A DNA stretch of 64,000 nt from Pirellulales bacterium (GTDB lineage: Bacteria; Planctomycetota; Planctomycetia; Pirellulales; Lacipirellulaceae): contig JAKVCC010000006.1 of the NCBI GenBank assembly GCA_022448265.1, positions 1 through 64,000 on the forward strand. Direction: 5' to 3'. The notes beneath the pieces were generated by a model. It was not told the origin of the DNA and did not search any database. It worked only from the letters and a program-made list of their open reading frames with translations. The translations under genes and the position numbers were made by a program. Below are positions 2,910 through 55,460 of the stretch, piece by piece; position 1 is the first letter of the stretch, and each line of letters begins with the position of its first letter.

Positions 2910-2977
2910 GTCGAATCCTTTCGTACATGTCCTCTGTTCTTAGCTGGCCACTAGGTCAGGCGCAGTAATCGAGGTGC

Positions 2978-3292
2978 TTACACCTCTTCGTTCAACGTCC
3001 AGCGCGGCTGTTCATGCCATTCCCATTTGCTGTCATCAGCGGTGGGGCAGGGGGGCTCCAATTCATAGTGGGGCGCACTGGCCCCGCGTTCAGTGCTGGC
3101 GTAACGGAGGCGTTCGCTCCGCACTTCACGTTGCAATTTGGAAACCAGTTGGGCGATGTACGGGTCGGCCCAAGGTACCAGCTCACTTGGGCGGGTGCTA
3201 AATCGTTGGCGCGTGCTCATTGTTGTGTTGTCGGCTACAGGCACGCGCACAACCGTACAAAAAACCTTTTTCATTCTGCGTGGAGCTACCAT
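2978..3292 (-). CDS. hypothetical protein, 104 residues
   Basis: The family is not recognised. The start is set by a strong ribosome site (AAGGA, 6 bases before the ATG at 3292); the longer frame beginning at 3310 has none. The protein opens with MVAPRRMKKVF, then a polar section ending RFSTRPSELVPWADPYIAQLV, and then a helix rich in Arg and Glu (KLQREVRSERLRYAS). The C-terminus is acidic and Trp-containing (DDSKWEWHEQPRW). No membrane segment or signal peptide is evident. Composition and the ribosome site argue that it is a real gene. Further in-frame ATGs occur (for example MSTRQRF), so the mature start could be later. Confidence 0.6.
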   Translation of the reverse strand: MVAPRRMKKVFCTVVRVPVADNTTMSTRQRFSTRPSELVPWADPYIAQLVSKLQREVRSERLRYASTERGASAPHYELEPPCPTADDSKWEWHEQPRWTLNEEV

Positions 3293-3744
3293 GGGTGTTC
3301 CTTTCCACATTTGGGCAAGATTTGCCCATTTTAAGGATTTGTATGAGAGGGAGTGAAAAGAGGCGCGTGTTGCTCAAGCCGATCACTCCTTGGCCTTGAA
3401 GCCGAACACGATTGCCTAGCCGGAAGTTACCGTTGGTGGGCGACAGCCGGCCGCGACAACCTTCCGGAAGTCGCATGCCCTAGTTGTTGCATTCCGCGTG
3501 CCACTGCCCTTTAACCTTTGGCTGAGCGGCCAGCCCCAAATGCGCAAACCCTTTTTTGCCATGCATTTAAGGCGTTTTTCGGCGTCATCTCACCGGCTAT
3601 CGAATTGGCGCAGGCGAAGTAGATTTTGCAATTTAATTGCAACGGGCCATAAGGTTTTTCGGTTAGACAGTTCGTGACGGGGGGCGCCCAGGAGCCTCGG
3701 AATCGTGTCGCCAGCAGCAGAAGAGGCCCAAGCATGGCGGCCGA
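3293..3744. other. intergenic region with an operator-like palindrome
   Basis: No gene is visible. The palindrome TGGGCAA-GAT-TTGCCCA (3312-3328) lies about 20 bases upstream of the start codon of the 2978-3292 gene, a plausible position for an operator. The rest shows no coding signal on either strand. Confidence 0.5.
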
Positions 3745-5103
3745 TTACCGAATGTCCAGTTTCGTCTGCAAATGCGCTACGGCCCGGTCCAGGGCCCGGT
3801 CGCGAAACGCCTCGGGCAGCGGTCCAAACTGCTGGTCGAGTTGCTTTTCAAGTTCTGTGCCCGCTCGGTCGCCGAGCAAATCACGGCGATTTCGATAGTG
3901 GCGCCACTCGTCGTACTCCTGCGGTCCAAGAGGTACCTCAAATCCCGGGTCCGGTTTGACGCCCCACGCGTCGTCGCTCCGGGCGCCTTCCATGCGATGG
4001 ATGTTTTGTCCACTCGGCCGCCAGTAGGTCGCGGAGGTTATTTTGAGCAGACTGCGTCCCGATTCGACCCGCATGACCCGTTGCACCGTCCCTTTGCCGT
4101 AGGATCGTTGTCCGACGACGACAGCTCTCCGGTGGTCTTGCATACATGCGGCCAGGATTTCGCTTGCGCTGGCGGACTCATTGTTCAGGAGTATGACCAA
4201 CGGTAGCTTGGTGTAGGCGCTGCGCCCGGTGGCAACAAACCGATCTCGCATCGTTTGGTCGCGCCCCCTTGTCGTCACTATGGGCAGACCCGCACGGAGA
4301 AATAAATCACTGATGCCGACAGCCGCGTCGAGAGCGCCGCCGCTGTTATCTCTCACATCCAGTATGAGTCCTTGCATATTTTTTGGCGAATCACTTGCCG
4401 ACGGTTCGGCGCCTTGCAGCTCGCCCAGCACGCGAGTCAATTCGTCGACGGACTTATCTCCAAATTTGTCAATCCGCACGTATCCGATACGTGGGTCCCG
4501 ATCCAACCGGTACTCCCAGTCGCCGCGCTCATTGCGTATGTCGCCAAGAATTGACTCGACAGTGATTATCTTCCGGACCAGTGAAATCTTGACAGGCTCC
4601 TGTTTTCCGAGCCGCGCGATCGTCAGGAAGATGGGTTCGCCGACCGGGCCCCGCATTTTCGACAACACCTCTCTGAAGTTCATGCCAACGGTCGTCTGGT
4701 CGCCAATCTTCAGAATTCGATCACCCGTTTGTACGCCCACGTCGAAAGCAGGTGTGCCCGGGACAGGCGGACTGATGACGGTGGGCAGAGGCGGTGCACC
4801 CAGAAAGCGAATCCGCACTCCGACTCCTCCAAATTCTTGTCGCATATCCTCTCTGAAGTGCTCGCGATGCGCCTCGTCAACAAAAACAGCGTACTCATCC
4901 CCGCGTTCTTTGAGGGCTCGCACCATGCCTTCCATCGCGCCCTCGAAGAGCGTCTGGTCTGGTGTGTCGACCAGCGACCAGCGATCGATGACCTTGTAGC
5001 TGGCGGCGACATAGCGGGCATATGGATTTTGTTCTGCGCGCACATAGCAGGCACAGGTGATAACTGTCGTCCCAAGCAGAAGTAGCAGATTGCGTCGCGA
5101 CAT
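3745..5103 (-). CDS. S41-family C-terminal processing peptidase (CtpA/Prc-like)
   Basis: This 452-residue serine protease belongs to the tail-specific protease family and acts in the periplasm or at the envelope. An N-terminal hydrophobic signal (RNLLLLLGTTVITCACY) is followed by a helical region, a PDZ domain (about residues 90-180; GVGVRIRF, DVGVQTGDRILKIGD) and the S41 catalytic domain. The motif LDVRDNSGGALDAAV, the nucleophile Ser312 in NNESASASE and the general base Lys337 in SYGKGTVQ are all present, spaced 25 residues apart as in CtpA. The sequence ends with an acidic and basic helix. No clear Shine-Dalgarno precedes the ATG. It is followed leftward by a long gap. The substrate is unknown. 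Confidence 0.93.
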   Translation of the reverse strand: MSRRNLLLLLGTTVITCACYVRAEQNPYARYVAASYKVIDRWSLVDTPDQTLFEGAMEGMVRALKERGDEYAVFVDEAHREHFREDMRQEFGGVGVRIRFLGAPPLPTVISPPVPGTPAFDVGVQTGDRILKIGDQTTVGMNFREVLSKMRGPVGEPIFLTIARLGKQEPVKISLVRKIITVESILGDIRNERGDWEYRLDRDPRIGYVRIDKFGDKSVDELTRVLGELQGAEPSASDSPKNMQGLILDVRDNSGGALDAAVGISDLFLRAGLPIVTTRGRDQTMRDRFVATGRSAYTKLPLVILLNNESASASEILAACMQDHRRAVVVGQRSYGKGTVQRVMRVESGRSLLKITSATYWRPSGQNIHRMEGARSDDAWGVKPDPGFEVPLGPQEYDEWRHYRNRRDLLGDRAGTELEKQLDQQFGPLPEAFRDRALDRAVAHLQTKLDIR

Positions 5104-5319
5104 AAATGGTATTGGAAAGAAAAAGATTGGGGAGAAGGTAGTTGGTTGTCAGCTCACGGGGTAAACGGAGCATCAGCGGATAGGCAGAGAAAAAGCAGTA
5201 TCCCAAGTCGAAAGTGGTGTTGCTTGGCTAGAGACTACCATTTTATTGGCGACAGGCTGTCGCTTTAATTGAAGCGGCGGCTTGAATTCCCTGATTTGAA
5301 TCCGCAGACAGCCGATTGC

Positions 5320-27301: not shown

Positions 27302-30076
27302 TTAACGTATTTCGAACGAATAGACTCCGCTTCCCACGCTGACGATAATTGCATCTCCGTTGTCGGCCACCCCCGTGATGCCGGCGACACCGGACTGAAA
27401 GGCGCCATCCTTCCACACGGGCTTGCCACCCTCGGCAACGGTTGCATTATTGGGCCCATTCTTCGGGAGGTAGATTCTGGCAGTGCTATTGCCGGGGATC
27501 GCTACCTCCATCGCGAAGCGGTTTTCGCTTTTTTTCCACGCGCTCTGTACCACGCCGCGGATCGTTCGCACCGAACCCTTGGCCCACGTCAAATCGCCCG
27601 CCGGCTGAGGCTTGATGACTATTTTCTCAAAGCCGGTGCTGCCAGCGTCCCGGTCGATACCGGCAATCGCCCGGAAAAACCACTCGCTTACCGAGCCGAG
27701 GAAGGGGTGGTTGTGTGAAATCTGCTTCGCGCCATTCCAAAATTCCCAGACGGTCGTAGCATCCTTTTCTACCATATATCCCCACGATGGCATGGTTGTT
27801 TGCGTCGCCAGCCGGTAGGCCACCTCGCTCTGCCCATGCATTCTCAAGGCCTGCATGACGTAGCGTGTGCCCTGCGGACCGGTTGTGAGATGAAAATCAT
27901 TTTCCTTGATGTCGTTAACCAGGGATTCAACCACCCGTTCCGCATGCCCATGCGGCACGATTCCAAGGTGGAGGGCAAATGCGTTGGCGGCCTGTCCGCC
28001 GCTGGCATAGCTTGCTGTATTTGCGTTAAAAAATTTGTTGTTCAGCGCGCCGGCGATATGACTGGACAGGTGCGTGTAGTATTCCGCGTCGTCGCGCTTG
28101 CCCAGCGCAACTGCCATTTTTGACATAAAGTGGGCAGCCCTATAGAAGTTGCATGTCGCGAGCATATCCTTGTGCTGGTCATCGACAACCGGCGAGCCCC
28201 AGTCGGCATACCCACCTTCATTGGGCCAAATGTAGCCTTGGCTACGGTCCAATATAAACTGCACTGATTTTTTTAGTCCTTCATACTGCTCTTCGATTAC
28301 CCGCGTATCGCCGTAGTACTCGTACACTGCCATGGCAATTTTAGTGTACACATCGTGCCAGCCCGCATGGCCATGTCCGCCCCAGCCTGTGTAGGGAATG
28401 TTGTCGGGAATGGCGCCGTCTTCTCTTTGGTTGTCTTGCATGTCGTTGAGCCACTTGGCATAAAAACGGCTCATGCCAAAATTGTAGATGCACGAATCGG
28501 CCATCACCTGCGCATCGCCGCCCCACCCACTCCGCTCGGCACGCTGGCAGCAGTCGGTGGGGATGCTCTGAATATTACTTCTGATTCCCCACGTGATGTT
28601 TTTCTGAATGCGGTTGAGCAATTTGTTGGAGCAATTGAATTCGCCGGCTCGCGGGACGGCCGACTGTACAACACGTCCTTCGATCGCATCGAGAGTCGGC
28701 TCGCCTGGGTAATTGGTGACCTCGACATAGCGAAATCCATGCGAGATAAACTGCGGTTCCCAAATCTCAACTCCCTCGCCCCGCAACACGTAGATGTCGG
28801 TCTGGATGTTGCCGTAGCCAATGGTGTTGGAAAAGTCGACGTTTCCTTTTTCATCCAGAAACTCAGCAAACCGGAGCCTAACAACGGTGCCGGCTGGCCC
28901 CTGAACTTTAAGCCGCGCCCATCCAGCAAAATTTTGCCCCAGATCAAATACGTAGACACCGTTTTTGGGCTCGGTTCGCTCAACCGCCTTGATGGTTTCG
29001 GTAACCTTGATGGGCTCGCACTGATGAGAAACGATTTTCCCCTGGTAGGGATCTTTCTTGATTTCGACCGGGTTCCAGGCACCGTCATCGAATTCAGGTT
29101 TGTTCCAGCCTGGAAGCTCTCTGCGGGCATCGTAGATTTCGCCCCACATATAGTTGTCGATCAGCCGCGGGCCGGCGATGCATTTCCACGAAGTATCAGT
29201 GACCACCCATTCGCTGGTGCCATCGGCATAGGTGATATTCAACTGCAAGAGCATTTGGCGCGCGCCGGACTCGGGATAATGGCTTCGCAAGGCAACCCCG
29301 TGTCCAATCGTGTAGCCCAGGGCGTTTTTCCCCTGCTGAAGTTCCTGAGTGACGTCAAATGCCTGGTACTGGATGCGTTTCTTGTAGATAGTGAAGTCGG
29401 GCGCCAGGACGGAATCGCCGATGGTCTTGCCATTGATATGAAACAAATAGCTACCCGCGCCGGTGACAAAGGCGCGGGCACGCTTGATTTCTTTTTCTAT
29501 CTCAAACTCTTTTCGGAACAGATTTGGCGCGACCGCTTCCGGATCCGGCAGCAGGGTTGTGCCTGTGAATTCTTCTGAAAAAGTTCGGGTGGTCCCTGGA
29601 ACTCCATCATAGCCTTTTGGTTGGATCCATTGGCCGGTCCAATCTTCGGGCCGGAGAAGGCCCATCTCCCACCAGGCAGAATCGCTGTAGGACGATGCCA
29701 CATTGCTTTGATCCCAGATGCGCAATTTCCAGTGGTATTGCGCAGCCGACGCTAGTGGCTTGCCTGCGTACGGGACCAGGGTGGATTGATTCGACGCGAC
29801 CTGGCCGCTGTCCCACATGTCAGCGTTGCCCTCATCCAGATTAGCCCGGCTGCTGGCAACCAAGATTTGATAGGCGCGCTGCGCGGCCCCGCGGCTGCCC
29901 CCCGCCAGTACCCAGGAAAACCGTGGCTCGAGGGTGTCGATACCGAGTGGGTTTTTTTGGTACTCGCAACGCAGCTGTTCGAGCATCGGTGGTTCGTGTG
30001 GGGCGGCACTGCCGGCAGGGCTTCGCAAGAAGATAACGGTGATAACAAGAGCACCAAAGGTTGCAGTTCTTGCCAT
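27302..30076 (-). CDS. GH78 alpha-L-rhamnosidase, secreted
   Basis: This 924-residue enzyme would remove terminal rhamnose from plant or algal polysaccharides or glycosides. MARTATFGALVITVIFLRSPAGSAA is a signal peptide. The layout is an Ig/fibronectin-like N-domain (LRCEYQKNPLGIDTLEPRFSW), an N-terminal beta-domain (GQWIQPKGYDGVPG...), the concanavalin-like domain (VFDLGQNFAGWARLKV) and the six-hairpin catalytic barrel. The catalytic motif is DCCQRAERSGWGGDAQ (about residues 507-522; DCPQRDER-GW-GDAQ in the family), with one unusual Cys for Pro. The barrel ends with TTVWEFWNGAKQISHNHPFLGSV. It is isolated on the minus strand, opposite the broken transglutaminase gene. Confidence 0.93.
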   Translation of the reverse strand: MARTATFGALVITVIFLRSPAGSAAPHEPPMLEQLRCEYQKNPLGIDTLEPRFSWVLAGGSRGAAQRAYQILVASSRANLDEGNADMWDSGQVASNQSTLVPYAGKPLASAAQYHWKLRIWDQSNVASSYSDSAWWEMGLLRPEDWTGQWIQPKGYDGVPGTTRTFSEEFTGTTLLPDPEAVAPNLFRKEFEIEKEIKRARAFVTGAGSYLFHINGKTIGDSVLAPDFTIYKKRIQYQAFDVTQELQQGKNALGYTIGHGVALRSHYPESGARQMLLQLNITYADGTSEWVVTDTSWKCIAGPRLIDNYMWGEIYDARRELPGWNKPEFDDGAWNPVEIKKDPYQGKIVSHQCEPIKVTETIKAVERTEPKNGVYVFDLGQNFAGWARLKVQGPAGTVVRLRFAEFLDEKGNVDFSNTIGYGNIQTDIYVLRGEGVEIWEPQFISHGFRYVEVTNYPGEPTLDAIEGRVVQSAVPRAGEFNCSNKLLNRIQKNITWGIRSNIQSIPTDCCQRAERSGWGGDAQVMADSCIYNFGMSRFYAKWLNDMQDNQREDGAIPDNIPYTGWGGHGHAGWHDVYTKIAMAVYEYYGDTRVIEEQYEGLKKSVQFILDRSQGYIWPNEGGYADWGSPVVDDQHKDMLATCNFYRAAHFMSKMAVALGKRDDAEYYTHLSSHIAGALNNKFFNANTASYASGGQAANAFALHLGIVPHGHAERVVESLVNDIKENDFHLTTGPQGTRYVMQALRMHGQSEVAYRLATQTTMPSWGYMVEKDATTVWEFWNGAKQISHNHPFLGSVSEWFFRAIAGIDRDAGSTGFEKIVIKPQPAGDLTWAKGSVRTIRGVVQSAWKKSENRFAMEVAIPGNSTARIYLPKNGPNNATVAEGGKPVWKDGAFQSGVAGITGVADNGDAIIVSVGSGVYSFEIR

Positions 30077-30797: not shown

Positions 30798-31071
30798 TCT
30801 AGCCAGCCGTGGCCACTTTTGGTCGATTGCCAGCCAACGATATGTGCACTAGCCCATTTGGGTTGGATTAACGTTGTCCTGGAATCGAACTGAAAGGAGG
30901 CCGGTTTACGGTGATTTTCTTTATCGCCACCCGTGTAATTCTGAAGGCTTAATAGTTCGTCGTAGCACCTTTTGGCTGCAGTAGCTGAAACAAGCTTGCC
31001 TTCACTTTTTGTTTACCTTTGTTCCACCCCTCGAATCGGTGCGTGGAATTCAATCTGGAGAATCGGATCTA

Positions 31072-31776
31072 ATGAACGTTGTAGGTTATATTTCAAAAAT
31101 TTCATTCTGCTTCTCGTTGCTTGGGGTCTTTACGACCGTCCATGCAGCTACAACACCTTTTACCGAGGATTTCAGTGCTGATGTAGCAGACTGGGGAGAT
31201 GCAGGTTCGCTTCCACTGACTTTTGTTGGAGCAGGTGGGCCTGACGGTAGCAGCTATGCAAGTACCGATTTTGCGTTTTCCTCAGGTGGCGGTTCCGGTG
31301 GTAGTTCTGCAGTGTTGTTTCGAGGACATGATGAGTTCGGAAGTAGTGGCTCCAGTGGCGGGGCTTTTGAAGGAAATTGGATCTCGGATGGTGTTGAAAA
31401 AGTGAAAGCTTTTGTGCGTCACAACGCTCCATCGCCGTTGTCTTATTTTGCCCGTGGAAGCGGTCCGTTTAACTTTCCTGGTGCTGTAGCCGTTGCATTT
31501 GCTCCGGTCATGCCGAACGTATGGACAGAACTTACATTTGATGTTACCGCATCTAGCTTCCAACTTGTGTCCTATGAAGGAAGCGATCATGGCACAGTGT
31601 TTTCGAATGTTGGTCATGTGCAGTTAGGGGTGAGTATTCCCGAGGGATTCGATGCCAATCCATCATCTTTTACATTTGATCTCGATAAAGTGTCGATCGT
31701 TCCAGAACCAACGACCGCCCTATTAGCAGGCTTGGCGTTATCCATGTGCTGTGTTCGAGGTCGAAGGAGAGTGTGA
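31072..31776 (+). CDS. PEP-CTERM sorted exported protein
   Basis: This 234-residue protein has a signal sequence (SKISFCFSLLGVFTTVHAA), a Gly/Ser-rich body with beta-type sequence (FTEDFSADVADWGDAGSLP, a DFSSGGG loop) and the PEP-CTERM tail VPEPTTALLAGLALSMCCV followed by a basic stop-transfer (RGRRRV). Such tails are cleaved and re-anchored by exosortase. The body resembles the frequent PEP-CTERM proteins of unknown function. The ATG at 31072 follows a GGAGA site about 11 bases upstream and removes a non-signal N-terminal extension. It is the first gene of a plus-strand run to 37104. Confidence 0.78.
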   Translation: MNVVGYISKISFCFSLLGVFTTVHAATTPFTEDFSADVADWGDAGSLPLTFVGAGGPDGSSYASTDFAFSSGGGSGGSSAVLFRGHDEFGSSGSSGGAFEGNWISDGVEKVKAFVRHNAPSPLSYFARGSGPFNFPGAVAVAFAPVMPNVWTELTFDVTASSFQLVSYEGSDHGTVFSNVGHVQLGVSIPEGFDANPSSFTFDLDKVSIVPEPTTALLAGLALSMCCVRGRRRV

Positions 31777-31892: not shown

Positions 31893-33134
31893 ATGGGGTT
31901 TGCCGTGTTTTATTCTCTCAACGTCGGTCGCCGACCGCATTGGCTAGCAGTTGTCGTGTGCCTGCTGTTTAATACACAGTTGCATGCAACGCAGTTTAGC
32001 TGGTTGCAACCCGATCTCGATTGGCTGTCCTATGTAAACGCTATTGGGGCTGGTAATCGCGCCTTTGGACCAAGCTGGATCGGTGGATTGGAACTAGATG
32101 GGCAAACAAATGAATTTGTCCCAAAAGGCAAGGAATCGCCATCAAGGCTTGGAATGCCGTTGGTTGCCTTCGATACATCAAGTGATGTGGTTGCTGGATT
32201 GCCCCCCAGTCAATATCAAATAAATTCAGTTACGCTCACTATGACAATGGCCAGTGCAACATTTCCGAGCGAGTTTATTTTTTATGATGATACGCCGGAT
32301 ACGCAGGCAGAGGTCCTCGCTGACATTCAAAGTGGTAGTTTTGATTCGCAGCGTCCTATGGAGCTTTACGGAGTTGGCTTTCGAGAGGGGTACATAGGCT
32401 TCGAATTTGCAGTGCCAGCAAGTGACTCCGCTTTACTGGACGAAAGCACGCAAATTTATGGGGCGAGTGACGGCGGTTATCTTGCCTATCCAATTTCTAG
32501 CGACGCAACAGGTCAACCACTCGATGTGTCCAATAGCATCACGGGTGGATTCAGTGAAACCGCTCCTGCGAATACGACGGCACCATTTGATCCCGTGCCT
32601 TGGTCTATAGGGACCACGAGCCTTTCCGTTGCCGCTGCAATCCCAGACGATACGACATTCACGTTCGACGTGAATCTCGCTGAACCGGGCGTATTGGATT
32701 ACGTGCAACAAGGACTTGCCAATGGCGAAATGGGCTTCTTTGTCTCCTCGTTAACTTTAGCCGCTCAGCCTGGCTTAGGAATCTTTCCCTATCCCCAGTG
32801 GTACTTGAAGGAGTCCGGTGGGGGAGCTGTCAACGGAATTCCGCCTACGCTTGAAATTGACGTCACCATACCCGGAGACTTCGACGAAGACGGTGATGTT
32901 GACAGTTTCGACCTCGCAGAGTGGCAGCTGCGCTACGGGGTCGATAGTGGTGCCGATGCAGATAGCGACAACGATTCGGATGGAGAAGATTTCTTGATCT
33001 GGCAAAAAAACTATACGGGGTCCGGGGCATTAGCGGTAACAGTGGTTGTTCCCGAACCAGCATCGATGGTTTTATTGTTAGCATTCTCCATTATTTCTGT
33101 CCGACCAAGCTTTCTGCGAGAGTATCGCCAGTAG
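31893..33134 (+). CDS. dockerin-like, PEP-CTERM exported protein
   Basis: This 413-residue protein begins with a signal (HWLAVVVCLLFNTQLHA), has a body of unknown fold (beta-rich; repeated TFPSEFIFYDDTPDT, VTLTMTMASATF) and ends with a two-motif calcium-binding dockerin (GDFDEDGDVDSFDLAEWQ and DSDNDSDGEDFLIWQKNY) and a PEP-CTERM-like tail (VVPEPASMVLLLAF). The dockerin would mediate docking to a surface scaffold or act as a calcium module. It is followed by the pseudopilin gene with an intergenic space of only 12 bases, so the two are probably co-transcribed. Confidence 0.75.
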   Translation: MGFAVFYSLNVGRRPHWLAVVVCLLFNTQLHATQFSWLQPDLDWLSYVNAIGAGNRAFGPSWIGGLELDGQTNEFVPKGKESPSRLGMPLVAFDTSSDVVAGLPPSQYQINSVTLTMTMASATFPSEFIFYDDTPDTQAEVLADIQSGSFDSQRPMELYGVGFREGYIGFEFAVPASDSALLDESTQIYGASDGGYLAYPISSDATGQPLDVSNSITGGFSETAPANTTAPFDPVPWSIGTTSLSVAAAIPDDTTFTFDVNLAEPGVLDYVQQGLANGEMGFFVSSLTLAAQPGLGIFPYPQWYLKESGGGAVNGIPPTLEIDVTIPGDFDEDGDVDSFDLAEWQLRYGVDSGADADSDNDSDGEDFLIWQKNYTGSGALAVTVVVPEPASMVLLLAFSIISVRPSFLREYRQ

Positions 33135-33146
33135 AGGGCATAAGAA

Positions 33147-34058
33147 ATAAATTCTTCTTGCATTCGTTCGTCTCGTGCTCATCAACCGGGGTTTACCCTG
33201 GTAGAACTGTTGGTCGTCATAGCGATTGTCGGCGTGCTAATCGCTCTGCTCTTGCCCGCGGTTCAGGCGGCCAGAGAAGCAGCCAGACGCGTCAGTTGCC
33301 AAAACAACCTCAAGCAGATCGGGTTGGGCGTCCTGAACTACGAACAGACCCACGGACATCTGCCGCCACCTAAGCTGGGGGACACCACGTTCAGCAACCA
33401 AGGAGGATTCTTCGTCCTGTTGTTGCCGTATATGGAGCAAGCGTTGGCGTTCGATCAAATCGATCCTTCAAAACCAGTTGATGATTCGCAGAACATTCCC
33501 GTTGTTACTACAGCTATTGACATCTATTTGTGTCCCTCTATGGGCTTGCCGCAAGAGGCACGCGATCCTGATTGCGGTCCACCGCTGGCTCCTGGCAGCT
33601 ATATTACTTCGACACGCACAACCTACTTTGGCTTCGGAAAGCTTGACGGGGCCTTTGCCAATCCGCCGGCAGATGGTAATTACAACCTTGGGATTCGTCA
33701 AATCACAGACGGAATGACGCAGACTTTGCTTGTCGGAGAGATTAGCTACATTCATGAGGGAAAGGTTGCTCCTAATTGTACTGGGAGTATTTCATCGCCA
33801 GGCTCGGGTGACTATGCTTGGGCAGATGGTTACTGGGCCCTTTCATGGGGGCACATGGCTGCTCAGTTTCCCGGCCTTTACAACAATCCTCTCGACTACC
33901 AAACACCTCACAGTTCCAGAGTATTTCGTAGCGATCATCCTCAAGGTGTGCAGTTTGTGATGCTCGACGGGTCAGCTCATTTCTTGCATGACAGCTTAGA
34001 CAAAGAGATTCGCCGTGCCTTAGTTACCCGAGCAGGTGCCGAAATTCAGAAGTTCTAG
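33147..34058 (+). CDS. DUF1559 type-II-pseudopilin-like protein
   Basis: The family is the abundant planctomycete DUF1559 group. The prepilin signal GFTLVELLVVIAIVGVLIALLLP is followed by AVQAAREAARRVSCQNNLKQIGLGVLNYE, then beta-rich sequence ending HFLHDSLDKEIRRALVTRAG. The gene lacks an ATG, GTG or TTG in frame between the stop at 33141 and the prepilin helix, apart from a TTG inside it at 33210. The best start is ATA at 33147 with a GAGGG ribosome site 8 bases upstream, or ATT at 33162. Starting there gives a normal basic leader (NSSCIRSSRAHQP). It is about 303 residues long. Role: probably pilus-like or scaffold; unproven. Confidence 0.85.
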   Translation: MNSSCIRSSRAHQPGFTLVELLVVIAIVGVLIALLLPAVQAAREAARRVSCQNNLKQIGLGVLNYEQTHGHLPPPKLGDTTFSNQGGFFVLLLPYMEQALAFDQIDPSKPVDDSQNIPVVTTAIDIYLCPSMGLPQEARDPDCGPPLAPGSYITSTRTTYFGFGKLDGAFANPPADGNYNLGIRQITDGMTQTLLVGEISYIHEGKVAPNCTGSISSPGSGDYAWADGYWALSWGHMAAQFPGLYNNPLDYQTPHSSRVFRSDHPQGVQFVMLDGSAHFLHDSLDKEIRRALVTRAGAEIQKF

Positions 34059-34131
34059 TGCATTTCATGTGTGAAATGACTGGATGGTGATCGGCCGCGA
34101 TTTACTAGTACAAAGTAAAAGGACTATAGAA

Positions 34132-37104
34132 ATGAATTTTAGAAGTATCGCTCATGTTCTAGCAATTGCTTGCGTGTGCCTTGGTGCATCCCATCGCAGC
34201 CTGGCTCATTTTGTCTGGATCGATTCTATAGATGAGGATGGCAAGACAAAAGCGGTGTTGTACTTTTCTGAGTCAGCACACCTGCAGGATTATCGGCTGC
34301 CCAAAAAGATTTCTAAGGCATCTGTTTGGCAAAAGAGCAAGGATAAGAAAAACCAGAAAATTGAAATGAGTGGTGTTGAAACCGATAGTCGGATTGGCCT
34401 GGAAGCAACGCTTAGTATGAGTGGCGATACTGTTTTAGCCGCTACTTGCGACTATGGAATCTACGGAGGTTCCTTGCTGTCTTACTACACTAAGCACATT
34501 CGTTGTTCCAATGTAGATCAGCTGGGATCTGCAGGCCAAATTAAGGAGTTGCAACTAGAAATTGTGCCACGTGTCTTGGAAGGAAAGATCGAATTAACCG
34601 TTCTTTGGAAAGGTAAACCAAAAGCAGATGTCGAAGTCGAGGTAGGTGAGCCCGATGATGAGTCCCATAGCCTGACGACGGACGCTCAAGGACGTGCTCG
34701 CTATCGGCCTACTGCGACTGGACTTGTTGGTGTGCGAGCAGGATTTACGGACAAGGATACTAAAGGTGAACTTGATGGCGAGGAGTATACCGGAGCTACT
34801 CACTACGCAACTTTGACGTTTCGCATAGACACACTTCAATCATTCCCTGAACGGGATGACAAGTTGCCTGATGGTCAAACCGTCTCCGCCATGCCAGCAA
34901 GCGACTATCCCGAATTGACTGAAGGTTTGGCAAGTTTTGGGGGGGCAGTGCGTGACAGCTGGCTGTACGTTTACAGCGGTCATGTTGGCGGGGCGCACGA
35001 TCACTCGCGAGAAAACCTGTCTCAACGCTTTCAGAGATTAAGGCTTGATGGCGGCATGCAGTGGGAAGATCTCCCGATGCAAACTCCACTGCAAGGTTTG
35101 GCTTTGGTTTCTCACAATACGGGCCTCTATCGCATTGGTGGAATGAATGCGCGAAATGCGCCCGAGGAGGACGAAGACTTGCATTCCACAAAAGACTTTG
35201 CCCGTTTCGATCCAACATCACGTAAATGGACCAAGCTGCCAGATTTGCCTGTTGCTCGCTCTTCCCATGATGCTGTAGTTATTGGTGACAAGCTTTATGT
35301 GGCAGGTGGTTGGACGCTCGATGGCGATGGCGAAGGTGCCTGGATCGACAAGGCAATAGTTTTCGATCTCTTAGACCCAACTGGGCATTGGAAGCAACTA
35401 CCAAGAGCCCCATTCGCGCGGCGAGCGTTGGCTGTATCTCATTGGCAAGGACACTTTGTCGTGCTTGGTGGCATCGATTCTGAGGGCGATATTTCTTTTG
35501 AAGTAGATTTGTACAGCCCTGAAACCCAGGAGTGGACGAAAGGGCCCAAGCTGCCTTGGCAGGGCATGGAGGCGTTTGGTATTTCTGCCTGGAACTTGGG
35601 TGGCCAGCTTTATGTGAGTGGGTTGGCCGAGCGTGTCTTTCAGCTGCAGGAAGACGGGCAGAATTGGACCGAGGCAACCGAATTGAAAATCCCAAGGTTC
35701 TTTCATCAGTTATTGCCACTCGATGATGATTCGCTGCTTGCTGTGGCAGGTGCTTCAAGGCGGGGGCACCTCGCACACATTGAGAAGTTGCAGATGACTG
35801 ATGCAACTACTGCTACAAATAAGACAACAACTAGTTCGATAAAGAAAAACACTCATGCTGTACCTGTCAGCAATTCTTCTCCTGCGAAGGCTTCATCTCA
35901 TGTAGAGCCAGCAGTTTTCAATTCCGATGACAGTTCAGCAAGCAACTGGCCGGGCTTTCGTGGCTTGGGCGATAGTGTGTCTACTGCAATCGACTTGCCC
36001 ACACTTTGGAATGATAAAGAAGGTATCGCCTGGGAAGCAGATCTTCCTGGCTATGGACAGTCAAGCCCAATCGTTTGGCAGGACAGGATATTTGTCACAA
36101 CTATGCAGGGTGAAAAGAAGGAGACTCCAACGGTACTCTGCTTTGGCTTGTCGAATGGTGAGGAGAAGTGGAGACGCGAATTCCAAAGTTCTCAGGAGAT
36201 TGAAGCAAGCAACTACGTAACACGAGGTTCGCCTACACCTGTCTGTGATTCCAAAGCAATCTATGCTTTCTTTGAAAGTGGCGAACTTATTGCACTTGAT
36301 CACACAGGAAATAAAATTTGGCAACGCTCTCTCGTCAACGACTATGGTGACTTCCAGGGGAATCACGGGATCGGCAGTTCACTGGCCGCTACTGAAGATG
36401 CCGTGATTGTCCTGGTTAACCATGACGGCCCATCCTACCTCATGGCAGCCAATAAGAGTGATGGCGCGAATTTGTGGAAGGTGGACTATGAGGAACGTGT
36501 CGCATGGTCTTCACCCATCGTCACTCAATATAACGGACGAAGTATCGTTATTGTGTCCGCAGGTGGATTGGTGGAAGCCTATGACGCCAGCTCAGGCAAT
36601 CGCCTTTGGCAAATCGAGGGCTTGCCAGGAAATAATGTCCCCTCTGCTACGGCATCAGGCGACTTGATTTTCATAGGCGCCAAAGATGTTGACTCAAATG
36701 TCGTACTACGTCTAGGTGATCTCTCCACAAACAGAGTTCCTGAAATTCTTTGGCGGTCTGAAAAGCAAAGCTGTAACTTTTGCTCGCCCCTGGTCCATCG
36801 AGGTTTAGTTTATAGCGTCAATCGCTCAGGTGTCGCATTTTGCGTTCATGTGCAGAGTGGCGAGATTGCCTGGAAGCAACGTTTGGGGGACTCCTGCTGG
36901 GCTTCACCATTGGCTGCTGGCGATAGTATCTACTTCTTCACGAAATCTGGAACAACCAGGATTATAAGTCATGGCAATAGCTATAAAGAGCTTGCTGAGA
37001 ACACCCTTACCATCGATCCAGAGACCCGCATCTACGGTATAGCTGCTGTAAACGGCAAGCTGATTCTGCGAACTGGGGGCAGGTTGTTATGCGTTGGAAG
37101 TTGA
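34132..37104 (+). CDS. DUF4198-like / Kelch / PQQ-propeller fusion protein
   Basis: This 990-residue exported protein has three parts. Residues 1-230: signal (SIAHVLAIACVCLGASHRSLA), then HFVWIDSIDEDGKTKAVLYF, the start of DUF4198/NikM-type domains linked to metal uptake in some bacteria. Residues about 260-560: Kelch repeats (YRIGGMNARNA, LYVAGGWTLDGDGEGAWI, FVVLGGIDSEGDIS). A Thr/Ser linker follows. Residues about 615-990: a PQQ-like propeller with the NWPGFRG entry and repeats of the SPIV...RIFVTTMQG, LWKVDYEERVAWSS type. The ATG at 34132 has AAAGGA 8 bases upstream. It is the last gene of the plus-strand run. Function is unknown; a metal-related role is inferred from the first domain. Confidence 0.8.
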   Translation: MNFRSIAHVLAIACVCLGASHRSLAHFVWIDSIDEDGKTKAVLYFSESAHLQDYRLPKKISKASVWQKSKDKKNQKIEMSGVETDSRIGLEATLSMSGDTVLAATCDYGIYGGSLLSYYTKHIRCSNVDQLGSAGQIKELQLEIVPRVLEGKIELTVLWKGKPKADVEVEVGEPDDESHSLTTDAQGRARYRPTATGLVGVRAGFTDKDTKGELDGEEYTGATHYATLTFRIDTLQSFPERDDKLPDGQTVSAMPASDYPELTEGLASFGGAVRDSWLYVYSGHVGGAHDHSRENLSQRFQRLRLDGGMQWEDLPMQTPLQGLALVSHNTGLYRIGGMNARNAPEEDEDLHSTKDFARFDPTSRKWTKLPDLPVARSSHDAVVIGDKLYVAGGWTLDGDGEGAWIDKAIVFDLLDPTGHWKQLPRAPFARRALAVSHWQGHFVVLGGIDSEGDISFEVDLYSPETQEWTKGPKLPWQGMEAFGISAWNLGGQLYVSGLAERVFQLQEDGQNWTEATELKIPRFFHQLLPLDDDSLLAVAGASRRGHLAHIEKLQMTDATTATNKTTTSSIKKNTHAVPVSNSSPAKASSHVEPAVFNSDDSSASNWPGFRGLGDSVSTAIDLPTLWNDKEGIAWEADLPGYGQSSPIVWQDRIFVTTMQGEKKETPTVLCFGLSNGEEKWRREFQSSQEIEASNYVTRGSPTPVCDSKAIYAFFESGELIALDHTGNKIWQRSLVNDYGDFQGNHGIGSSLAATEDAVIVLVNHDGPSYLMAANKSDGANLWKVDYEERVAWSSPIVTQYNGRSIVIVSAGGLVEAYDASSGNRLWQIEGLPGNNVPSATASGDLIFIGAKDVDSNVVLRLGDLSTNRVPEILWRSEKQSCNFCSPLVHRGLVYSVNRSGVAFCVHVQSGEIAWKQRLGDSCWASPLAAGDSIYFFTKSGTTRIISHGNSYKELAENTLTIDPETRIYGIAAVNGKLILRTGGRLLCVGS

Positions 37105-43613: not shown

Positions 43614-46600
43614 TCATTTCGGACTTGCTGCTGATTCGGCTTGAATGAAGCACGCATCGGCCCAGGCGGCGTGATCGCCGTCGTTTTGATTGTCGACGCC
43701 TGTCGTGACGATCAATTGCAGTTGTTTGGCACCTGCAATATCCACGTCGACCGTCTTGGCTTCGTCGCCTCGGGTCATGTGACCGGATTCAAAGGCTAGC
43801 TTGCCATCGACATGGACTTCGTACCCGAGCGTCCCGGACGATTCATCATCGACACCGACTCTGGCATAGAAACGCTGGAAGCCGTAGCCCGAGAGGTTAT
43901 AGATGATTTCGCCTGGTGAGTGTGTGCCGATGCCTCGTTTGTACGTCGTGTCGGCAATGCGGATTGGGTTGCTTTGGACAGATTTGTCTTGCTTCGGAGT
44001 ATTCCATCCTTGTTTAGCACTGACGGCATCTTTTAGTTGCAGATAGACGCGGCGCCTCCTCGGATATTTGTTGTCGTCGATTTCCTTCAGTACGAATTTT
44101 TGCGGCTCGATCAACGCGAAGGATTTGTCGTCAAACGTGCTCCAGAAGACCAGGCTATCTCGCACAGCAGGAAGTATCGTGGCGTGACCTTCTTCGTACA
44201 GTTGACGTATTTCGTCGCCGTCAAGAGCGCGCAGATAAACTTTTAGGTCGCCGATTTCCCCAGTGAATCGACCACCGCTCACTGACCCCGCGATTGTGGA
44301 GAACGATCCGCGGTAAAATGTGTTGTCATTCATCTTCTTTGCTTGGTCACGTTTGCCATTTACGTAGATGCGCATGGCCATTTCCCACGTGGCTTCCTGG
44401 ACAGGCAGACTGCCGTCGTCAGCGCCACCAGTCTGCTGGGGCAGATGCGTTGCTTGAAGTTGATAGCAGTGAAACGTCCATTCGTTGCGTTTTGGTTTCG
44501 GATGACGCCAGTGCGAATTTGTGCCGAAGGCGAAGAACGGATCTTTCTGCCTGTTGATGCCGGCTCGCAGACCGCCTTTGCGCCCGCTGATCAGGATGGC
44601 ATCTCTGTCCCAAAGGTGTTTGTCGGGATGCTGATGGCGGAACCAGAGGCAGATTGTGAACGCTTTGTCTTTCAGGTCGATGGGATTCTTCAGTTCGGCA
44701 AAATCGTTCGTGCCGTTGAACCAGATGGCTTTTTCTGAATCGCCGGTTTGCCGGGGCGATCCGTAGAATTCAAACGCGTCAGCACTGGCCGGCGGCTGGA
44801 TGACGGCGAGGTCGGATTCGAATTGTGCAACCGTCAGGTGATGCTTTACTCCGTTGCCTGGGATAGCGACCTTGAATTCCAGTTCGCGAGTTTCACCCGG
44901 TTGCAGATCGGGTGCGGTTGTCGGCTGCAATTTTCCATTTAGGCTCATTGGGATTTCAAGTTTTCGCGATGGCTTGCTGCCGGTATTGCGGACGGCGGCG
45001 CGAATCGTCAGTCGTTCGTTCGGAAAGACCGACTTAAGGATCGACGAACTGTCTACAAAAAATGCCGCGGGCGTTTCCGCAATGTTGATCGTTCGTGATA
45101 CCTTGTGGAAGTTGTTTCCGTTTCGACTGAAGATAACCGAAATATCATGTTGTCCCGTTTGGTACAGACGCGGACCGGCAACAACGATGTCGCGTGTTTC
45201 CCCGAGCGGGATGCTGAATCGCTCGGCCGATAGATCTCGTCCGGACAACTGCATCGTGATTTTTAGAGGATAGAAGCTGGAAAGATTTCTAACTTGGATT
45301 CGAGCGGAAACACTGACATCGGCTTTGACGTGTTCATCGGGAAGCTGGACGGACTGAATGTCGAAAGCCTGCCGTGGAAGAATTGCGGCAAACTGATCGG
45401 CAGCCGGCTTCAAATTGGCAGGGATTACGTCGAAAGGATCGATATCTGGCCGCGCCTTGACAGTGACTTCGGCGCTACGCAGGCCGTTGGCTGTGGCGGA
45501 AACGGTGACGGTTCCTGGTTTGCCAGTTGACCGAACGATTGCCTGGCAGACACCGCGGTATGTCGATGGATTGCCTTTGGCTAGAGACGAACGAACGCCG
45601 GGGGCATTGATGTTGCGGGCGGCGTTGCCGGTCGCAAGCAGGTTCCCCGGGCCTTTGACCCTTAGACGAACCTGCTTGGCGGGCAAGTCCTTCAACAGAT
45701 TTCCGTTTGCGTCGACGACCGAGACTTTGACAATTGACACGTCGCGCCCGTCGCAGCGCAGAGCGGGTGCACTCGGTTCGAGTACAAGGCGCCTGGCGGA
45801 ACCAATGGGCTTCAGAAGCTGCTCAGCGACTTTCTTCCCCTGGCGGATGCCGACGAGCTGTAGGTCAGCTCCGGGTTGAAATGGAACTTCGATCGACAGC
45901 CGACAGTCTTCTTCTGGCAGATACGATTTGCGATTTGGACGTCCTGGCTGCACAACACTTTCGACGCGCTTTCCGCCAACAAAAACGTCGATACGATCGC
46001 AACTTGTATATCCCTCTAACAAAACTTTTTCCCCTGACTGGCCGGTCCACCGATTGTCGACCCATAGGACATCGTGTTTGCCCCACTGGCAACGAGCAAG
46101 ATGGAATCTTTCCGTTGGATAGTGCAGACAATCTCCGAGATGCCCAGGCCAGTGAGTGTTCGGAAAGCTGCCCTCGCCTCGATAATCAAAACCTGTCCAG
46201 GTGCTGGAGCCGGCGATCCACGGATGCTGCGCGAAGCTGTCCCACGTCTGGCCGTAGTAGTTGTATTCGGAAATATAGACGGCTCGCTGCGGAAATTTCC
46301 GATGGTCATCAGCTGCATCTTCAGCGTTGCGCCAGTTCAGGCCGAGTACATCGAACATGTCACTAAAGCCACAGGGATCGTTGAACTTCCCGTTCTGAGC
46401 GATCGAAATCGGGCGCTGTGAATCCAGGTGGCGAACATCCTTTATCAGAGTTCGCGCAATTTGCATACCGGCCGGCGTTCCTTGGACTTTGACTTCTTCG
46501 TTACCAAGGCTCCAGAGAATGACACTGGGGTGATTCCGATCGCGCCGGACCAGCGTTTGCACCGATTGGCGACCGAATTTACTTTTGTCGAAGTACCGCG

Positions 46601-47756
46601 TTTCATTGGCAACCAGAATTCCCAAGCGGTCGCATGCATCAAGCTCTTCAGAGGAACGCGGATTGTGGGCAGTTCGCATGAAAACACCGCCCGCGTCTTT
46701 CAGAAAGCGGATGGCTTCATACCGCACGCGTGTTGGTAATGCTGTGCCGAGCGGCCCGAGTGAATCGTGATTGCAGACGCCGCTGAGCCGGTAGTGCTTA
46801 CCGTTTAGATGAAAGCCGATTTCCGGATCGAAGTGAAAAGTCCGCAGGCCGATGTTCACGGTCGCTGCGTCGATATGGACTCGATCCTGCTTTCGAATCA
46901 AATGGGACTCGACGGAATACAATGCTGGGTTTTCCGGGCACCACAACGTCGGATTTTCGATTATCAGGTCTTCCGACCACTCGATTTCCTGATCGCGATG
47001 GATCAGCTGTGGTTTGCTTTGAACCGATGCGACAATGTTGCCAGTCAGGTCGCGTATGATTGTCGCAACGATCAGCGAGTCCGCGTCTCCGCGATTGGCT
47101 ATCGTGGTTTGAACACGAACACTGGCGGCGGCGGGAGTGATGTCAGTGGCTTCGGCAAACAGACCGTCGGAAATGATGAAGGCGTTGTCAGTGATATGAA
47201 GTCGCACTGCTCTATAAATGCCGCAGCCTTCGTACCACCAGCCTTCCCGCAGACTTGCGTTGCAACGCACGGCCAGAGTGTTCTTGCCACCCGGCCGTAG
47301 AACATCAGTAACATCAAATCTGGCGGGGATGTAGCCGCTCGTCCAGTGGCCGATGTGTTGTCCGTTCAGCCAGAAGTCGCTGTCGCGATAAACACCATCA
47401 AACTCCAGGACGAATCGTTTCCCCTTTTCGGATTCCGGGACACTGATGTTGCGTCGGTACCAGCCGATGCCGATTGGCAGGTAACCGTTGGCTCCGTCTT
47501 TCCTCCATACAACCCAGTCAGTGAACTGCTTGCTCTCCAGCCTGTTTTCTTCTGAAAATGGGCCGTCAATTGACCAGTCGTGAGGAGTCTGAACGCGCTG
47601 CCAACTCGAATCATCAAACTCAGGCGACTTGGCTGCAGGGTGATCACCACGCTGGAATCGCCAGTCAAAGTCGAGCGACTGGACATCGCGAGCCGCTGCA
47701 AGAGATGAAATGGCGCAGATTATGATGCAGGCAAGTAAGCGGCCGGTTGTAGACAT
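43614..47756 (-). CDS. Large GH2 beta-galactosidase-like glycosidase with LamG and NPCBM modules
   Basis: This protein of 1380 residues is secreted (signal LLACIIICAISSLAAARD) and starts with the GH2 sugar-binding domain (LDFDWRFQRGDHPA), an Ig-like domain, then the TIM barrel with acid/base Glu in SLGNEEV (about residue 416) and a nucleophile Glu in ISEYNYYGQ (about residue 495). Further Ig-like domains follow, then a LamG domain (KAFTICLWFRHQHPDKH...ALDGDEIRQLYEEG) and a C-terminal NPCBM (KRGIGTHSPGEI, then ESSGTLGYEVHVDGKLAF) with AWADACF at its end. The start at 47756 is chosen to keep the signal; 32 upstream residues look non-coding. Substrate: a galactoside-like or related sugar; unproven. 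Confidence 0.88.
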   Translation of the reverse strand: MSTTGRLLACIIICAISSLAAARDVQSLDFDWRFQRGDHPAAKSPEFDDSSWQRVQTPHDWSIDGPFSEENRLESKQFTDWVVWRKDGANGYLPIGIGWYRRNISVPESEKGKRFVLEFDGVYRDSDFWLNGQHIGHWTSGYIPARFDVTDVLRPGGKNTLAVRCNASLREGWWYEGCGIYRAVRLHITDNAFIISDGLFAEATDITPAAASVRVQTTIANRGDADSLIVATIIRDLTGNIVASVQSKPQLIHRDQEIEWSEDLIIENPTLWCPENPALYSVESHLIRKQDRVHIDAATVNIGLRTFHFDPEIGFHLNGKHYRLSGVCNHDSLGPLGTALPTRVRYEAIRFLKDAGGVFMRTAHNPRSSEELDACDRLGILVANETRYFDKSKFGRQSVQTLVRRDRNHPSVILWSLGNEEVKVQGTPAGMQIARTLIKDVRHLDSQRPISIAQNGKFNDPCGFSDMFDVLGLNWRNAEDAADDHRKFPQRAVYISEYNYYGQTWDSFAQHPWIAGSSTWTGFDYRGEGSFPNTHWPGHLGDCLHYPTERFHLARCQWGKHDVLWVDNRWTGQSGEKVLLEGYTSCDRIDVFVGGKRVESVVQPGRPNRKSYLPEEDCRLSIEVPFQPGADLQLVGIRQGKKVAEQLLKPIGSARRLVLEPSAPALRCDGRDVSIVKVSVVDANGNLLKDLPAKQVRLRVKGPGNLLATGNAARNINAPGVRSSLAKGNPSTYRGVCQAIVRSTGKPGTVTVSATANGLRSAEVTVKARPDIDPFDVIPANLKPAADQFAAILPRQAFDIQSVQLPDEHVKADVSVSARIQVRNLSSFYPLKITMQLSGRDLSAERFSIPLGETRDIVVAGPRLYQTGQHDISVIFSRNGNNFHKVSRTINIAETPAAFFVDSSSILKSVFPNERLTIRAAVRNTGSKPSRKLEIPMSLNGKLQPTTAPDLQPGETRELEFKVAIPGNGVKHHLTVAQFESDLAVIQPPASADAFEFYGSPRQTGDSEKAIWFNGTNDFAELKNPIDLKDKAFTICLWFRHQHPDKHLWDRDAILISGRKGGLRAGINRQKDPFFAFGTNSHWRHPKPKRNEWTFHCYQLQATHLPQQTGGADDGSLPVQEATWEMAMRIYVNGKRDQAKKMNDNTFYRGSFSTIAGSVSGGRFTGEIGDLKVYLRALDGDEIRQLYEEGHATILPAVRDSLVFWSTFDDKSFALIEPQKFVLKEIDDNKYPRRRRVYLQLKDAVSAKQGWNTPKQDKSVQSNPIRIADTTYKRGIGTHSPGEIIYNLSGYGFQRFYARVGVDDESSGTLGYEVHVDGKLAFESGHMTRGDEAKTVDVDIAGAKQLQLIVTTGVDNQNDGDHAAWADACFIQAESAASPK

Positions 47757-48227
47757 TTGGTAGTCGATCAACGGAATTCTGAATTGACGGAGATACTGGC
47801 GCGGCGGTGTCCCAGAAGGAATGGGACATTCTTGCGCAGTAGAAAATTTCAACGGGTCATCCGATTGCGATGTTAGCTATTGCCAAGGTGAGACCGCCAA
47901 GCAGTTTGGAGAATATTGACCGCTTCAATCGACAGGCAAGTCTCGTTGTCGTACTCGCGGACCAAGCTGCTTTTAGCAGGTGGTTTTGGTTCGTGAGGTT
48001 CAAAATCCGTGTTAGTGATCTTATATAGTACGTTCCGAACTAGAGTCAATCGTATGCATAAGCCAGTATTTTCTATTTGGGTGATTTTTGAACTACTCTA
48101 GGCCCAAAGTGCATCTATCTAAGTGGGAAATCTCGGTTAAAATGTTGGCGATCACGAGCGCGGCTTGTGGATTGTAAATTGGTGGTGCAGTTGAGCCACG
48201 TCCAGGCCTACAAGGAATTTCTTGCTG
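47757..48227. other. divergent intergenic region, A+T-rich
   Basis: About 470 bases between divergent glycosidase and dehydrogenase genes. No coding frame is convincing. The right part (around 48010-48100) is A+T-rich and probably holds promoters, but none is assignable with confidence. Confidence 0.4.
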
Positions 48228-53457: not shown

Positions 53458-53666
53458 TTCAAAATTGTTGCGATGGCCGAGGGGGTCTAGTAGAATAGAT
53501 CAGTAGTGGATACAGAGAGCGAATTCCCAAAAATTTTGAGCTAGCGCCGCCGCCACAGATCAGCGCACTAAGTTGCCTTTGGGCTACCAGCAGTGCAGAA
53601 TTCCTGGCGGCATTCTTTTTGGGCAGGGGCCCCGGCTATGTGGCAGCGCCGAGCGAGGAACAGAAG

Positions 53667-55460
53667 ATGAAGACGAACACCGCTTCGTTGTGCTTGTGGC
53701 GGGCAGTCCTTGTGGTTGGCCTGTTGGCGGCGCCGGCCTCGGCAGAATCTCTGGACACAGAAATCATCTTTACCGCTTCTGACGCGTCTATTGACGATCG
53801 GCTGGGCCAGGCGGTGGCTATCAGCGGCAACGTTGCCATTGCCGGGGCGGACCGTAACAGCCATGCGGGCATTCATTCTGGGGCGGCCTACCTGTTTGAC
53901 GTGACAACAGGGAACGAACTGTTCAAGCTGACCGCCTCGGATGCCGACGAGAGGGACGTTTTTGGGCATTCGGTCGCGATTAGCGGTAATACTGCCATTG
54001 TCGGTGCACAGAACAACGACGACGTGGTCAATCTCTCAGGCTCGGCCTACTTGTTCGATGTGACCACGGGAACAGAGCTCTTCAAGCTAACCGCGTCCGA
54101 TGCCGCAGAAGGCGACCAGTTTGGCCACGGCCTGGGAGTTAGCGGCAACCGCGCCATTGTAGGATCATTCCGCGATGACGACATGGGCAAGGATTCTGGC
54201 TCGGCGTATCTATTCGACGTTGCGACCGGCGAGGAACTCTTCAAGATTACCGCCTCCGATGGTGCGGCAGGCGATTGGTTTGGCTACTGGGCGGCGATCA
54301 GCGGCAACCTAGCCATTGTCGGGGCGCGCCGCGACGACGGCGTGGGTATCAATTCCGGATCGGCCTATGTGTACGATGTGACTACCGGCGAGGAATTGAT
54401 GAAACTCACTGCCTCAGACGAAACAGCGGGTGCCGAATTCGGCTATGCCGTGGCCATCGACGGTACTACGGCCATCATCGGAACCTGGGGAGACAATTTC
54501 ACACAGGCTCAACCGGGCGCAGCCTACCTGTTTGATCTGACCACCGGCAATGAACTGGCAAAATTGACTGCCTCTGACGGTGTGTTCGGTGACGAATATG
54601 GCTACTCAGTGGACATCGACGGCGACACGGCTATTGTCGGGGCCTACGGCGATGCGGGCGCCGCCTATGTGTACGACGTGACCCGGGGCTACGAGCTTTT
54701 TAAGGTGACCGCCTCCGATACCGCAGCGGGCAATGAGTTTGGAACGGCCGTGGGAATCAGCGGCAACATAGGCGTCGTGGGGGCATGGCTCGACGATACT
54801 AGCGTACCGAATACGGGGCAGGCTTATTTGTATGACTTTTCGGCGGAGTTACCTCAGGGTGCCGACTTCAACGACGATGGTGTGGTTGATAACGCGGATT
54901 TGTTGCTGTGGGAGAAGGCCTACGCGGGACCACAATTTGACGCCAATGACGATGGTCAGGTCATGGGTGTTGACTTTCTCTTTTGGCAGCGGAGCTTCGG
55001 TGCGGATGGAACGGTGCTGGACGATAGCCCAGCCAACTTGGATCAGCAAGGTCCGGTAGATGGCAGCGACGCTGTCATTTGGGAGCAAGCGTACGGCGTT
55101 GACGATTTTGGGGACGTGGACAACGACGGCGATACGGACGGCTTGGACTATCTCGAATGGTTGCGAGCGTTCACTCCCTATGACGCCGCAGACGAGAATT
55201 ACGATCGGCTGGTGGACGGCGGTGACCTGCTGCTATGGTGCGCCTCGTATGGCTATACAGGAGTCCTCCAAGCAGACGGGGACGGAGACGGCGACAGCGA
55301 CAGCGACGGACTCGACCTCCTGGTGTGGCAGCAACAGTTTACCGGATCACCGCCGCTAGCCAGTGCTGTACAGGTACCCGAGCAAGGGTCGTGGCTGTTA
55401 GTTTTAGAGTTTCTGGTCACCTGGATCGGTGGATGCCGGTATCGCTTTGGGCGAAATTAA
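53667..55460 (+). CDS. seven-repeat FG-GAP-like propeller protein with dockerin modules
   Basis: This 597-residue exported protein has a signal (LCLWRAVLVVGLLAAPASAE) followed by seven tandem repeats of about 55 residues. Each has the pattern ASDxxxGDxFGxxVAISGNxAIVGA and ends xYLFDVTTGxELFKLT. Seven repeats fit a seven-bladed beta-propeller. The following 200 residues contain at least four calcium-type dockerin half-modules (NDDGVVDNADLLLWEKAY, DNDGDTDGLDYLEWLRAF, GDSDSDGLDLLVWQQQF) and a degenerate PEP-CTERM tail (VPEQGSWLLVLEF). The ATG at 53667 has GAGGA 7 bases upstream. Probably a surface or secreted protein; the function is unknown. Confidence 0.82.
   Translation: MKTNTASLCLWRAVLVVGLLAAPASAESLDTEIIFTASDASIDDRLGQAVAISGNVAIAGADRNSHAGIHSGAAYLFDVTTGNELFKLTASDADERDVFGHSVAISGNTAIVGAQNNDDVVNLSGSAYLFDVTTGTELFKLTASDAAEGDQFGHGLGVSGNRAIVGSFRDDDMGKDSGSAYLFDVATGEELFKITASDGAAGDWFGYWAAISGNLAIVGARRDDGVGINSGSAYVYDVTTGEELMKLTASDETAGAEFGYAVAIDGTTAIIGTWGDNFTQAQPGAAYLFDLTTGNELAKLTASDGVFGDEYGYSVDIDGDTAIVGAYGDAGAAYVYDVTRGYELFKVTASDTAAGNEFGTAVGISGNIGVVGAWLDDTSVPNTGQAYLYDFSAELPQGADFNDDGVVDNADLLLWEKAYAGPQFDANDDGQVMGVDFLFWQRSFGADGTVLDDSPANLDQQGPVDGSDAVIWEQAYGVDDFGDVDNDGDTDGLDYLEWLRAFTPYDAADENYDRLVDGGDLLLWCASYGYTGVLQADGDGDGDSDSDGLDLLVWQQQFTGSPPLASAVQVPEQGSWLLVLEFLVTWIGGCRYRFGRN

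Follow-up and report, generated by a model that had tools for sequence, protein, structure and literature searches.

The gene analysed here, which lies in a 64,000 nt stretch of Pirellulales DNA (the window), is a fusion of neighbours that ties a PQQ-type propeller to a DUF4198-Kelch protein. The open reading frame, Pfam matches and structure models agree on a 990 aa product in which a signal peptide, recognized by eye, is followed by a DUF4198-like domain, a Kelch propeller, a Ser/Thr-rich linker and a PQQ_2 propeller (Table 1), confirming the original prediction that the three domains are united in one exported chain. We call it a neighbour fusion because elsewhere the PQQ propeller is encoded by a separate gene on the same strand and because fusions of PQQ and Kelch propellers in the reverse order exist. 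What is new is a single domain added to a two-domain protein that is common in planctomycetes; the evidence from neighbouring genes for a link between the two is strong.

The frame is open from an in-frame ATG at 34084 to the stop at 37104, corresponding to 1006 aa. The ATG at 34132 is the better start, since the signal peptide MNFRSIAHVLAIACVCLGASHRSLA, with His directly behind it, begins there and AAAGGA is found just 5′ of it. The helix in the AlphaFold2 model falls within this signal peptide, and the fusion protein is probably exported, with a cleavage site placed by eye. Both halves align over their full length with relatives at about 30-52% identity, which excludes a chance reading frame. 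In genome contigs, an alignment-based scan recovered relatives, and a plain protein scan returned none. AlphaFold2 was run on two separate parts rather than on the joint chain, giving a mean pLDDT of 91.2 and a pTM of 0.64 for DUF4198 plus Kelch and a mean pLDDT of 86.8 for the PQQ part. Residues 243-256, in the gap between DUF4198 and Kelch, and 564-571, after Kelch (model numbering, Met-based +1), were modelled with low confidence, as linkers are.

Table 1 Features of the fusion gene and its upstream neighbours (positions in the window).
Feature	Position	Strand	Basis and remarks
Whole fusion gene	34132..37104	+	990 aa; ORF, Pfam, structure models
Sec-type signal peptide, 25 aa, S-L-A end	34132..34206	+	Sequence; model helix 2-20; cleavage site by eye
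DUF4198/NikK-like beta domain	34207..34833	+	Pfam PF10670, conservation, model; starts at invariant His26
Kelch beta-propeller	34912..35802	+	Pfam, VIA-align Z <=34.3, conservation
Ser/Thr/Lys-rich linker, without second signal peptide	35803..35937	+	Sequence; GC3 0.27
PQQ_2 (BamB-like) beta-propeller	35938..37101	+	Pfam, model, Foldseek, tree
DUF1559 pilin-like gene, directly upstream	33144..34058	+	PF07596 172 bits, TIGR04294; GFTLVEL leader, H-X9-DG end
Exported protein, PEP-CTERM-like end by eye	31893..33134	+	No Pfam match; C-terminus PEPASMVLLLAFSIISVRPS
PEP-CTERM protein further upstream	31009..31776	+	PF07589 20.3 bits vs 20.7

The DUF4198-Kelch part is widespread. Among the matches listed, a query with these two domains hit 204 of 297 sampled genomes of the class (E<=1e-8), many of these matches being full-length, and the whole-protein query hit 28 of 43 genomes sampled in the family (E<=1e-60); the genome draws behind these searches and those of 396 and 397 genomes overlap. 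When the Kelch genes of 121 loci, including the window, were classified, 92 encoded DUF4198~Kelch, 5 DUF4198~double Kelch, 22 Kelch alone and 2 double Kelch alone, and D3386~Kelch (double), PQQ~Kelch and the DUF4198~Kelch~PQQ of the window were single cases. The proteins from Bythopirellula polymerisocia (L189), Gimesia (L193) and Rhodopirellula baltica (L261) share the first two domains with the window protein at 32-48% identity and likewise have a DUF1559 gene upstream, whereas the relatives stop after Kelch and mostly comprise about 540-610 aa. Most of the layout, which had been put forward as undescribed, is therefore not new. That claim stands for the exact three-part order: the matches listed in the overlapping draws of 43, 396 and 397 genomes include no other protein that spans the three parts, and a literature search covering mostly open-access papers yielded no account of a Kelch plus PQQ fusion architecture or of planctomycete Kelch plus PQQ proteins, nor did the listed titles and abstract beginnings on planctomycete Kelch proteins point to a Kelch-PQQ fusion. 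Apparent open frames longer than 1000 aa in four relatives that we checked (L055, L104, L045 and L263) contained 2-11 stops between two genes.

Other partners occur as well. In locus L215 a 765 aa protein (2870-5167) joins three domains differently, as DUF4198~Kelch~DUF3386, and a PQQ gene of its own comes next. The Kelch proteins of L263 (7149-8816), L277 (6313-7938) and L067 (4916-7798) begin with DUF3386 instead of DUF4198 and have a PQQ gene nearby; DUF3386 was matched in 21 of 219 scanned loci, the locus sets being redundant. This variety is best read as a modular family in which the Kelch propeller is always present as the hub and DUF4198, DUF3386, a second Kelch propeller and PQQ are its partners.

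The third part has its counterpart in neighbouring genes. Of 120 loci, 20 (from 20 of 117 genomes and 15 of 74 genera) have a PQQ gene no more than 2 kb away from the Kelch gene and in the same orientation, and 2 have one in the opposite orientation; at an assumed density of 20-50 PQQ genes per 6.5 Mb, about 0.7-1.8 same-strand loci would be expected. The 120 loci are a hand-picked set of the stronger listed matches, 20 of them chosen mainly for long open frames. DUF4198 and Kelch are also encoded by separate adjoining genes in several loci, so that the parts do occur as separate neighbours, as the original prediction had proposed to check. In the remaining 100 loci no same-strand PQQ gene was present within 2 kb, suggesting that these proteins can do without the PQQ partner or that its gene lies elsewhere. 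Fusions of PQQ~Kelch were found in L070 (genome G228) and L267 (G359), which belong to two families and have Ser/Thr-containing linkers; they join a Kelch and a kindred PQQ propeller in one chain, in contrast to the window protein in the reverse order and without DUF4198.

The PQQ part itself is well defined, scoring 92 bits against a cut-off of 27.6 for PF13360 (PQQ_2) and matching BamB structurally with a Foldseek TM of about 0.7. It shares the propeller fold of BamB (YfgL), from which the window protein differs by its fusion to other domains and by the absence of a lipobox Cys at the apparent cleavage site; a BamB orthologue was rejected by TIGR03300 (64.6 vs 285.2). A maximum-likelihood tree of 50 PQQ domains placed the window PQQ inside a set of 40 rows supported at 100/100. 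This set includes 26 of the 28 Kelch-neighbour PQQs but not one of the 6 paralogues from the source genome; the rows labelled OTHER and D1559ADJ had been picked for similarity to the window PQQ. Its finer position, beside L070 and L163, is supported at 84/83 only. Outside the main clade were the PQQ of L072, one of the 20 PQQ-neighbour loci, and the second PQQ of L137. Within the family search (43 genomes, <=19 candidates scored per genome) no PQQ relative at E<=1e-60 was found outside the window, and the Kelch half is closest, among the matches listed, to that of the congener G304 (48% identity), suggesting that the Kelch half was inherited vertically and that the PQQ half was gained, or retained after loss elsewhere.

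Taking these observations together, the best joint explanation, which we hold tentatively and at somewhat less than an even chance, is a real exported fusion with a neighbour-derived PQQ propeller that acts as a metal-binding envelope protein with docking propellers; the metal binding, the docking and the location are inferred. A vertically inherited DUF4198~Kelch gene, kept in the class beside a DUF1559 gene, would have gained a PQQ-type propeller at its 3′ end. Upon removal of the signal peptide the mature chain would begin with His26, which together with Glu47 would likely coordinate a transition metal, either in the periplasm or on the cell surface. The two propellers would most likely dock other envelope proteins, and one chain could thus hold the metal site and its partners together, replacing a complex of separate proteins.

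The evidence for such a site comes from the N-terminal domain. Its membership in DUF4198 is borderline by Pfam, with 33.2 bits against a cut-off of 34 for PF10670 in the protein scan, where only the C-terminal part of the Pfam model aligns, and 34.8 bits in the six-frame search of the source genome; the modelled domain is mostly beta with high pLDDT, the DUF4198/NikK fold being a 13-strand beta-sandwich with a cleft. All 98 aligned DUF4198~Kelch proteins have His directly behind the apparent signal cleavage site; at position 47, where the first beta-hairpin ends, 94 have Glu, 3 Asp and 1 His. No second invariant His is evident in the alignment of this domain, and Glu47 is a putative second ligand by its position. 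The solved DUF4198 structure, PDB entry 9GCB, was not among the listed matches of the DUF4198 plus Kelch model, a comparison which spanned mainly residues 261-560. In the passage of PMC12537917 on the DUF4198 protein of Ideonella (IsDUF4198), nickel is bound via the N-terminal His and His18 with a Kd of 18 nM. The window protein resembles DUF4198/NikK (9GCB) in being an exported beta domain with a His directly after the apparent cleavage site and in its C-terminal part, which aligns with chain residues 119-187 (E 0.0085), and differs in its fusion to Kelch and PQQ propellers, in a Glu instead of an evident second His and in a genome lacking CbiM or NicO.

The source genome (3.64 Mb, 97% complete) contains no match to CbiM/NikM (PF01891), NicO (PF03824) or DUF2271, and two ApbE genes are present elsewhere in it; hence neither the nickel uptake nor the DUF2271 setting of DUF4198 is present. 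Since the second ligand looks like Glu and CbiM/NikM and NicO are missing from the genome, nickel is doubtful and not favoured as the metal, and the same absence of CbiM or NicO disfavours a NikM-like role as a nickel uptake accessory. The N-terminus had been described as DUF4198/NikM-like, of which DUF4198 holds, whereas NikM is imprecise, as 9GCB bears the title NikK and the genome has no CbiM/NikM match. For the suggested ligand- or metal-dependent interaction surface, the invariant N-terminal His lends indirect support to the metal, and the surface itself stays putative.

The same domain could be read differently. In a structural or adhesive envelope protein, DUF4198 would be a plain beta-sandwich spacer, the propellers would bind glycans or surface proteins and the His would be kept for export or folding. 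The pilin-like DUF1559 and PEP-CTERM neighbours would suit such a protein, as would the missing nickel transporter families CbiM and NicO and a profile whose matches to CNA-B/transthyretin-like domains are about as good as those to NikK. However, a His after the apparent cleavage site without exception and a position 47 restricted to Glu, Asp or His are typical of metal ligands, not of a spacer, and the nearest characterized family binds nickel through its N-terminal His (in the part of PMC12537917 cited above), which makes this reading somewhat unlikely.

The neighbours themselves are conserved to different degrees. In 93 of 121 loci a DUF1559 gene lies close to the Kelch gene in the same orientation, and 10 of 121 have a PEP-CTERM-type gene at position -2 or -3, in a cluster typed by eye from a representative. 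A small gene, mostly located directly upstream, is present in 26 of 121 loci, and two scanned members had no Pfam match. In L171-L175 and L178 DUF1559 stands directly 5′ of a PQQ gene with no Kelch gene in the stretch, indicating that DUF1559 pairs with several exported proteins. In the window, the DUF1559 gene has no ATG, GTG or TTG between the stop at 33141 and the prepilin-like leader, where only codons such as ATT (33162) and ATA (33147) are present; an unusual start codon, a mutation or a sequence error would each explain this.

The Kelch domain scored 68.7 bits for Kelch_1 (cut-off 20.1) and superimposed on the known Kelch propellers NS1-BP, KEAP1 and YjhT/NanM with Z scores of 32-34 (best 34.3); thus it shows both repeats above the cut-off and a propeller fold. 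Its conserved set comprises H289, R334, N342, R376, R430, R431, R522 and H525, all invariant or near-invariant, of which His289, Asn342, Arg431 and Arg522 are invariant and His525 and Arg430 near-invariant. This His/Arg/Asn set, the Z of 32.6 to YjhT/NanM and weak NanM matches (PF24996 28.9 bits vs 45; TIGR03548 37.6 vs 243) might suggest that Kelch, PQQ or both are enzymes of the mutarotase/epimerase or quinoprotein type, with DUF4198 as a targeting or metal-loading domain. We consider this quite improbable, as all enzyme family scores lie far under their cut-offs, the non-enzymatic Kelch domains of NS1-BP and KEAP1 score equally or higher and the PQQ part is BamB-like; a NanM epimerase/mutarotase is rejected by the scores given above, and a PQQ dehydrogenase by its family score (TIGR03075, 32 bits vs 480).

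An artefact of assembly, or a read-through of two adjoining genes that is recent and without function, for which one could cite the single occurrence of the three-part fusion in a fragmented genome of 87 contigs and the two-gene frames with intervening stops seen elsewhere, is highly improbable, because the frame is uninterrupted, the G+C of the halves is similar (0.525 for Kelch and 0.494 for PQQ), the PQQ part differs at about half its positions from every relative in the tree (highest identity 52%, to L070) and is therefore not a chimera of known genes, and such joining is evidently tolerated in the two fusions of reverse order. Moreover, most free PQQ relatives start with their own hydrophobic leader, and the window protein has its Ser/Thr/Lys-rich linker at this place, ruling out two genes joined with a leftover signal peptide.

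We suggest, as an unlikely proposal when taken as a whole, that in planctomycetes of this class a lineage-typical envelope system consisting of DUF1559, the DUF4198 His/Glu site, the Kelch hub, PQQ and in places DUF3386 and ApbE~DUF2271 captures or handles an extracytoplasmic transition metal, three of its components being one chain here. According to the passage concerned in PMC8238504, DUF4198 accompanies ApbE/DUF2271 in PepSY flavinylation clusters. Similarly, a fused ApbE~DUF2271 gene lies beside the DUF4198 or Kelch partner in five loci (L065, L066, L067, L264 and L266; confirmed by Pfam for L067), whereas the source genome lacks DUF2271, and Kelch and PQQ go unmentioned in that passage. 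A flavinylation partner as a general rule was rejected, ApbE/DUF2271 being near few loci only and DUF2271 missing here.

An extra domain in a single genome would by itself be a modest curiosity. In the manner of a Rosetta stone, however, the fusion points to one PQQ propeller, among the many in planctomycete genomes, as working with a DUF4198-Kelch protein that has no assigned function. The invariant apparent N-terminal His marks out a group of secreted metalloproteins that was described recently, and proof of metal binding would provide the first function for a family that was matched in about two thirds of the sampled genomes of the class.

The surroundings of the gene show some further features. 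The G+C content between 30000 and 38000 of the window is 0.48-0.51, compared with about 0.55-0.60 before. Polysaccharide-breakdown genes lie on both sides, encoding an alpha-L-rhamnosidase and a GH2 enzyme with an NPCBM domain (27302-30076 and 43614-47852), and the gene at 53619-55460 encodes a further propeller-type protein, in which FG-GAP_2 repeats form seven stretches (330 bits).
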